Assembly: GCF_003610195.1 (NCBI RefSeq)
Contig: NZ_RAPO01000003.1
Location: 682,001 to 746,000 of the forward strand
Source: Halopiger aswanensis
GTDB taxonomy: Archaea; Halobacteriota; Halobacteria; Halobacteriales; Natrialbaceae
Direction: 5' to 3'
DNA: 64,000 nt
Both the position numbers and the translations under genes were made by a program. Shown piece after piece: positions 59,970 through 61,361 of the stretch; position 1 is the first letter of the stretch; each line of letters starts with the position of its first letter. The notes under the pieces were generated by a model, which worked only from the letters and a program-made list of their open reading frames with translations, was not told the DNA's origin and made no database searches.

Positions 59970-60701
59970 CTATCCGAACCCGAGTAACGACCGCAGCGTT
60001 CGCGTTCGAACGCCACAGTCGTCGGCGAACTCGCAGCCCTCGCACTTGGTGCGGTTGGTCGTGCGCGCCGGCGGCCCGTCCATCTCGCGGACCGTCCGGA
60101 GCACCCGCCGGTAGCGAGCCTTGCGTCGCGTCGTCAACGCGACCGAGCGGACGACCCCGTAAGCCGGGTACTCGAGCCACGCCCGGTCGACCGCCGTCTC
60201 GTGCTCCCACGCCAGCGCCTTCGCGGCCGCGACGGCGTGGACCGACTGGGGATCCCAGACGCCCTGGTCCGGCGGTTCGCCGGTCGAGACGAGCACCGGC
60301 TCGAGGGGATCCTCGAGCACCTTGTGGACGATCCCCCGACAGTCCCGGCCGGTGGCTAGCACGTCTCGATCGGCGGGTGCACAGAGACGGCGCCAGTGGT
60401 CGCGTTCGTCCCCTGAGTCGTCGCCGGTCTCGAGTCGCTCCCGGGTCGCCCCGAGCGTCTTCCGGTACTGCGCGGCCGGGATAGCGATCGGTTCGTCGGC
60501 GAGGGCGGTCGATGGCGCCTCGAGCAACTCGTCGTACCGCGTCGCGAGGTCGCGGACGGCCTCGACGTCCGGAGGTGGCCGTCGCTGGTCGTCGGTGGTG
60601 CGCCGGTAGTAACACTTCCGCGGACAGTACGCCGCCGTTCGAAGATCGCTAAACGAGACGAGCGAGCGGGACACGGGGCGTCTGGCCGCCCCTTCGTACA
60701 A
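59970..60701 (-). CDS. Cas4/RecB-like protein with intact Fe-S cysteines and degenerate nuclease residues
   Basis: A 243-residue protein. The N-terminal AYCPRKCYYRR (C26, C30) and C-terminal TKCEGCEFADDCG (C220, C223, C229) are the iron-sulfur frame of Cas4/AddB-type PD-(D/E)XK proteins. The intervening RecB-like core aligns by hand (CRGIVHKVLEDPLEPVLVST, then GVWDPQSVHAVAAAKALAWE). The catalytic Asp is His126, and the (D/E)xK is Leu137-Val-Ser139, so the enzyme is probably inactive. Q152 is retained. No CRISPR array or cas genes are near. It follows the Cmi4-like gene by 69 bp, on the same strand. The start may be ATG 60701 or GTG 60671. Confidence 0.8.
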   Translation of the reverse strand: MYEGAARRPVSRSLVSFSDLRTAAYCPRKCYYRRTTDDQRRPPPDVEAVRDLATRYDELLEAPSTALADEPIAIPAAQYRKTLGATRERLETGDDSGDERDHWRRLCAPADRDVLATGRDCRGIVHKVLEDPLEPVLVSTGEPPDQGVWDPQSVHAVAAAKALAWEHETAVDRAWLEYPAYGVVRSVALTTRRKARYRRVLRTVREMDGPPARTTNRTKCEGCEFADDCGVRTRTLRSLLGFG

Positions 60702-60770
60702 AAACGCGCGGCCGATACCGCGCGCTCGTCACCGTCGAACCGAGCCGAAGTGGAGTAGCCCGTCGAATCG

Positions 60771-61361
60771 TTAGAAGTCGACGTCCGTCTCCATCCCTTC
60801 GGTCGCGTCCTCGAGGCCGTCCTCGCGAACGTCGGTCGTCATCCGCTCGGAGAGTTCGGCGTCCGCGAGGATGCTGTCGAACTCGTCGCGGTAGCGGTCG
60901 TTGGCCGTCCGGGACTGGTCCTCGGCTTCCGCGACGCGGCGGTAGCGGCGGATCTGGGCCTCGCTGACGTCGTACTCCGCGGCCAGCGTCGCGTCGTCCT
61001 CCTCGCGGCCGCGGATCGCCGTGAGGTCGACTTCGTCGGCGTCGTCGTCGCGGACGAGGTGCAGCGACATTCGGGCCTCGAAGATCTCGTCGGCGTCGAC
61101 GCCGAGTTCCTCGGCGATCGCCGCGTCGCTCTCGTCGTCGTAGAACGCCTTCGCGACCTCGCTGAGTTCGTCGTTCGAGAGGTCGGTCTCGAACTCGTAG
61201 CGCTCGCGCATCTGCGTGATGACGTTCTCGAGGCGCTCCTCGTCGGTTTGTTCGTCCCGCTCGAGCGAACCCCGCGTGTTCTCCTGGGACTCCGTGACGG
61301 TCTCCTCCCCGTCGGTGACGTCGGTGAAGATATCCCGCAGTTCCTCCGTTTTTTCGTTCAT
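60771..61361 (-). CDS. Cmi4-like regulatory protein (conditioned medium-induced protein 4 family)
   Basis: A 196-residue, very acidic protein with Glu/Asp/Thr/Ser-rich ends and two HTH-like segments: FYDDESDAAIAEELGVDADEIFEARMSL and EEDDATLAAEYDVSEAQIRRYRRVAE. The N-terminus MNEKTEELRDIFTDVTDGEETVTE agrees with haloarchaeal proteins named conditioned medium-induced protein 4 (recollection), described as induced by growth-phase signals. No signal peptide or membrane helix is present. TTAAATAG on the minus strand (61385-61392) sits about 28 nt before ATG 61361, a leaderless promoter. Confidence 0.75.
   Translation of the reverse strand: MNEKTEELRDIFTDVTDGEETVTESQENTRGSLERDEQTDEERLENVITQMRERYEFETDLSNDELSEVAKAFYDDESDAAIAEELGVDADEIFEARMSLHLVRDDDADEVDLTAIRGREEDDATLAAEYDVSEAQIRRYRRVAEAEDQSRTANDRYRDEFDSILADAELSERMTTDVREDGLEDATEGMETDVDF

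Follow-up and report, generated by a model that had tools for sequence, protein, structure and literature searches.

What might a Cas4-like protein do for a haloarchaeon if the residues with which Cas4 cuts DNA have been replaced, the cysteines of its iron-sulfur (Fe-S) module have been kept, and no CRISPR system lies nearby? The question is raised by a gene in the window (that is, the whole stretch of 64,000 nucleotides of Halopiger aswanensis DNA that was analysed), which the original prediction had described as a catalytically dead relative of Cas4 that retains its Fe-S cysteines and lies outside CRISPR, beside a gene named cmi4.

The gene, its start codon and its promoter

An open reading frame was confirmed on the minus strand at exactly 59970-60701, and a plus-strand reading of the same interval was ruled out by stops in frame. 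The TTG at 60701, with which the listed frame begins, is probably too far upstream as a start. The region upstream of residue 10 (in the numbering of the original prediction) contains in-frame stops in several orthologues, an ATG or GTG nine codons inside that TTG is common to all orthologues compared, and a TATA-like element stands at -30 to -23 relative to it; on these grounds the GTG at 60674 is most likely the start of the gene, and its transcript would be leaderless. Residues are numbered below from that GTG, and the addition of nine gives the original numbering.

59970..60674, minus strand: putatively inactive Cas4-like protein of 234 aa, counted from the probable GTG (the listed frame begins at TTG 60701)
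60697..60704, minus strand: TATA-like element TTTTTGTA, 30 to 23 bases ahead of the GTG; seen when the sequences 5' of 66 non-redundant orthologues were aligned
60683..60689, minus strand: GCGGCCA element, at -15 to -9 of the GTG start, kept in orthologue promoters

The minus-strand interval 60672-60704 of the window thus displays a haloarchaeal promoter class, in which a TATA-like element is followed by GCGGCCA at -15 to -9 and then by a leaderless start. A strict form of the pattern matched 4 times in the host genome, and 75 times in 59 genomes as compared with a single match for a reversed control; the genes 3' of the matches (at loci that include L175-L178) are unrelated to one another. 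GCGGCCA was therefore ruled out as the marker of a regulon of the cas4-like gene and cmi4, since the motif lies 5' of unrelated genes in many haloarchaea, and it was assigned instead to a general promoter class, which may represent a core promoter or operator element not yet described.

Loss of the active site and retention of the cysteines

The residues that correspond to the nuclease triad were followed across 66 diverse homologues, 29 of them haloarchaeal and 37 from other archaea (alignment A2). Haloarchaeal CRISPR Cas4 proteins served as the control for this mapping: their motifs GxxD and P-x-E-R-K hold an invariant Asp, Glu and Lys, and their GKID...PIERK aligns with GIVH...PVLVS of the present protein; that alignment bore out the original assignment of His126 to the catalytic Asp position and of LVS to the (D/E)xK motif.

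60324..60326, minus strand: codon of His117 (His126 in the original numbering), where Cas4 has its catalytic Asp; 24/29 haloarchaea have H here and 27/37 other archaea have D
60285..60293, minus strand: LVS, residues 128-130 (137-139 in the original numbering), at the (D/E)xK position; 0/66 acidic at Glu
60624..60626, minus strand: invariant C17 (C26 in the original numbering), first putative Fe-S ligand; 66/66 in A2
60015..60044, minus strand: C211, C214 and C220, the CxxCx5C of the putative Fe-S module; 66/66 in A2
60255..60272, minus strand: PDQGVW, residues 135-140, the family's own loop after strand 3; P135 in 66/66, G138 in 63/66, W140 in 61/66

The position of the catalytic Glu was acidic in none of the 66 homologues and hydrophobic in all but one. 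At the Asp position the five haloarchaeal sequences without His carry D, A, G, S or Q, and at the Lys position S or F was found in 27/29 haloarchaea and K or R in 34/37 of the other archaea. Judged from these alignments, the family appears to be catalytically dead by loss of the triad residues. Elsewhere in Halobacteriota the Glu-less family often retains both Asp and Lys, as does a divergent relative (L104) that forms the first branch on the haloarchaeal side of the tree, and the Glu was therefore lost first, followed by the Lys and Asp.

A conserved H/L/S triad was not found across haloarchaea, because neither the His position (H, D, A, G, S or Q) nor the Ser position (S or F) is constant, a pattern that corresponds to decay rather than to the emergence of a new triad. 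What is conserved instead comprises the four cysteines, CPR-x2-Y, G-x3-K, the PxxGVW loop, EY and an Arg; among these features the PxxGVW after strand 3, K118, E168-Y169 and R176 are peculiar to the family.

The claim that the Fe-S cysteines are retained held in substance, with a correction to their number: the protein contains seven cysteines rather than five, of which C17, C211, C214 and C220 (C26, C220, C223 and C229 in the original numbering) are invariant in all 66 homologues, and of which the remainder, including C30 in the original numbering, vary. Four invariant cysteines are as expected for an Fe-S cluster, which the protein would presumably bind. The loss of the Glu together with the retention of these cysteines recurs in every one of the 66 homologues and is therefore not a matter of chance.

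Fold, CRISPR context and descent

An AlphaFold2 model of the protein (pLDDT 93.2, pTM 0.88) was compared with solved structures, as the original prediction had proposed. The best Foldseek matches in the PDB were the Cas4 chains of Cas4-Cas1-Cas2 complexes (8d3l, 7mi4 and 8d3q), followed by AdnAB and Dna2, and the predicted fold is accordingly that of a RecB-like PD-(D/E)XK protein of the Cas4 type. An alignment of the family profile with intact haloarchaeal Cas4 by hhalign gave a probability of 99.3%, and all 29 haloarchaeal members of alignment A1 matched TIGR00372 weakly. The curated cut-offs were not reached by the protein itself, which scored 31.4 bits against a cut-off of 65 for TIGR00372 and 18.5 bits against 22.7 for PF01930, and a sequence-profile search of solved structures returned a chance match only.

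The window contains no CRISPR array, as the original prediction had stated for the surroundings of the gene, and searches of the host genome found neither Cas1 nor any Cas4 above cut-off, so that membership of a CRISPR adaptation module is excluded for the gene in that genome. The only other match to a Cas4 profile in that genome lies in an open frame of 926 aa that carries helicase motifs and is Dna2-like. Taken with the four cysteines in 66/66 homologues and the acidic Glu in 0/66, the lack of Cas1 supports the initial picture of a dead, cysteine-retaining Cas4 relative next to cmi4 and outside CRISPR.

The gene was found in 157/158 good Halobacteriales genomes, nearly always as a single match, and true Cas4 above cut-off in 34/118 genomes of that order. 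The original prediction had proposed a search for conservation across haloarchaea; the range of the family is far wider, with more distant relatives across much of the phylum Halobacteriota. At least one near-complete genome (G060) lacks the gene, and in another (G005, C25:257340-257798 and 291186-291386) it is present in two parts 33 kb apart, which suggests an insertion or rearrangement, or else an assembly error. The absence in the first and the split in the second indicate that the gene is not strictly essential. Values of dN/dS between 0.09 and 0.23 correspond to purifying selection, and in the tree of the family the haloarchaeal members form a single clade and all other members a second, with archaeal families falling largely together. 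No relatives were detected in a two-motif scan of IMG/VR viral contigs or by tblastn in PLSDB plasmids, and a viral or plasmid origin was ruled out on that basis. The family is ancient and vertically inherited, and in Halobacteriales its member is a core chromosomal gene.

Proposed role and alternative explanations

The explanation that we favour, tentatively and at somewhat less than an even chance, is that of a housekeeping, Fe-S-stapled DNA-binding pseudo-nuclease, which has kept the fold of Cas4, has lost its nuclease chemistry and works in the replication or repair of the chromosome. The fold, the loss of the triad, the four cysteines, conservation, selection and independence from CRISPR are seen in sequence and model; beyond these, we infer a bound cluster, DNA as the ligand and a part in replication or repair. 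The case for DNA is drawn from the fold, from charge and from replication-gene neighbours in other archaea. The median pI of the haloarchaeal Cas4-like proteins is 8.3, as compared with 5.0 for haloarchaeal Cas4 and 4.0-5.0 for those genes of the window with a secure reading frame, and residues 181-234 carry a net charge of +8, with several near-invariant Arg and Lys residues. Orc1/Cdc6 immediately precedes the Cas4-like gene in the same orientation, with almost no gap, at five loci in two archaeal families (L117, L120 and L211-L213), and in another family PCNA divergently adjoins the gene in 7/8 loci, mostly with the primase gene priL nearby. The neighbours differ by lineage (cmi4, a PAPS-reductase/PUA/ferredoxin protein, Cdc6 or PCNA), so that the link to replication comes from two clades.

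According to this proposal, nuclease chemistry would have been lost stepwise, with the catalytic Glu disappearing first, the Asp and Lys following in haloarchaea, and the Fe-S module being kept throughout. The cluster would staple the N- and C-terminal parts of the Cas4-like fold together, and the former nuclease groove, along with the basic C-terminal segment, might hold single-stranded or end-containing DNA and not cut it. The protein would be a subunit with a structural or recruiting part in the replication or repair of the chromosome and, in haloarchaea, would usually be encoded beside the HTH-like Cmi4 with no strict dependence upon it. A bolder form of the proposal, which is possible and to our minds rather doubtful, holds that the family is a pseudo-nuclease dating to the common ancestor of Halobacteria and their methanogen- or ANME-type relatives, an Fe-S subunit that gives structure to a core complex of replication or recombination, and in its logic a counterpart of the dead domain of RecC that has been masked by its resemblance to Cas4.

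The main rival is a redox sensor that acts with Cmi4, followed by a rewired enzyme. A sensor would use the Fe-S cluster of the inactive fold to report the state of oxygen, redox or iron, and would regulate transcription together with Cmi4; its support is drawn from the invariant four-cysteine module and from the following neighbour.

60771..61361, minus strand: cmi4 homologue, whose product of 196 aa is acidic and helical; a conserved neighbour, upstream and in the same direction

This gene was originally called cmi4, which we take to denote a conditioned-medium-induced gene. It lies no more than 1.2 kb upstream and on the same strand in 43/53 haloarchaeal loci (12/20 in a phylogenetically broad set), and is present in 96/98 good genomes. 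The Cmi4 model is all-helical with HTH-like segments, at a moderate pLDDT of 75, and in the window a divergent Fe-S oxidoreductase gene lies beyond cmi4. Against a sensor, the same cysteine module is common to active Cas4 nucleases and does not require such a function; the Cmi4 model found no significant fold match in the PDB; two near-complete genomes with the Cas4-like gene (G043 and G051) yielded no cmi4, and G060 has cmi4 alone; and tblastn detected no cmi4 near the non-haloarchaeal homologues. We consider the sensor unlikely. The genomes that have only one of the two genes also weaken the idea of a strict two-component complex with Cmi4. Near-universal in haloarchaea, Cmi4 is strongly conserved at both ends, with M[DN]EKTEELRDIF at the N-terminus and EDGLEDATEGMETDV at the C-terminus; the only note on the gene found in the literature reports its disruption in H. 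volcanii (PMC3462420).

A rewired enzyme, in which K118, E168, R176 and Y169 would form a migrated active site that still cuts nucleic acid, is a distinctly unlikely alternative. Migration of the active site does occur among PD-(D/E)XK enzymes, and the family as a whole keeps K118, E168 and R176. However, the Glu position is non-acidic in 66/66 homologues, no alternative [DE]xK motif was seen in their conserved core, and the haloarchaeal Asp and Lys positions drift, as would be expected once metal binding was no longer under selection.

An accessory role in Fe-S, sulfur or other metabolism, and not on DNA, appears improbable. In its favour, a gene for a PAPS-reductase/PUA/ferredoxin fusion lies 3' and in the same direction in 6/6 examined genomes of one methanogen-type family (L105, L106, L110, L114, L119 and L226), and in another clade a pyridoxal-dependent decarboxylase gene lies 3'; these partners are, however, lineage-specific and are not the haloarchaeal neighbours, and the fold and basic C-terminus point to nucleic acid. 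At L110 the Cas4-like and fusion open frames overlap as listed. A gene whose product appears to be an ACT-domain regulatory protein (cluster c7) was observed within 3 kb of the Cas4-like gene at L112, L117, L118, L120 and L121, in otherwise different lineages, and was not found near the haloarchaeal Cas4-like genes.

Finally, a component of CRISPR adaptation (Cas4 proper) or a decaying pseudogene, which the weak similarity to TIGR00372 and PF01930 might suggest, is already refuted for the host genome by the lack of Cas1 and, in the window, of an array, by the near-universality of the gene against the patchy occurrence of true cas4, and by purifying selection.

Relation to known systems and significance

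CRISPR Cas4 (TIGR00372/PF01930; SSO0001 4IC1, 8D3L, 7MI4), which provides the closest structural matches, likewise has a RecB-like fold, a four-cysteine module and an N-terminal Cys-Pro-Arg. In contrast, the present family has lost the catalytic Asp, Glu and Lys, falls below the family cut-offs, is a near-universal chromosomal gene unaccompanied by cas genes, and is marked by a PxxGVW motif of its own and by a tail, SLxSxL/F, at the C-terminus. The Dna2, AddAB and AdnAB nuclease domains and the inactive nuclease-like domain of RecC share the same fold, but the present protein stands alone at 234 aa and has no helicase domain. Dna2 and AddB carry Fe-S clusters, and RecC shows by precedent that a dead nuclease domain can guide DNA.

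The nucleocapsid protein TP1 of the virus TTV1 is likewise an inactivated derivative of Cas4, in which the Glu of motif III has been replaced (PMC4625639); that protein is a virion component that has lost the Fe-S module, whereas the present family is cellular, old and vertically inherited and retains all four cysteines. The survey of solo-Cas4 proteins by Hudaiberdiev et al., which also concerns Cas4 homologues outside CRISPR loci, described the catalytic motifs as conserved in all Cas4 proteins (PMC5704561), and the single inactivated derivative that it cited is the TTV1 nucleocapsid protein. The present clade, which does not have those motifs, may have been filtered out of that survey, and looks like an overlooked exception; in the open-licence literature that was searched, no paper describing the family was found.

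Earlier descriptions treat all Cas4 proteins as active nucleases, and the present clade contrasts with them. With the Glu apparently lost before Halobacteria split from other Halobacteriota, and the Fe-S module kept under purifying selection, the role of the Fe-S fold would be separable from cutting. Archaeal annotations as Cas4-like may accordingly denote proteins that are neither part of CRISPR nor nucleases. In haloarchaea the gene is near-universal, and its role is open to direct test in Haloferax volcanii. The presence of such a protein, with the cutting parts absent, in nearly all haloarchaea and in many methane-cycling relatives suggests the early conversion of an old DNA-cutting enzyme to housekeeping work, which most likely consists in holding or sensing DNA.
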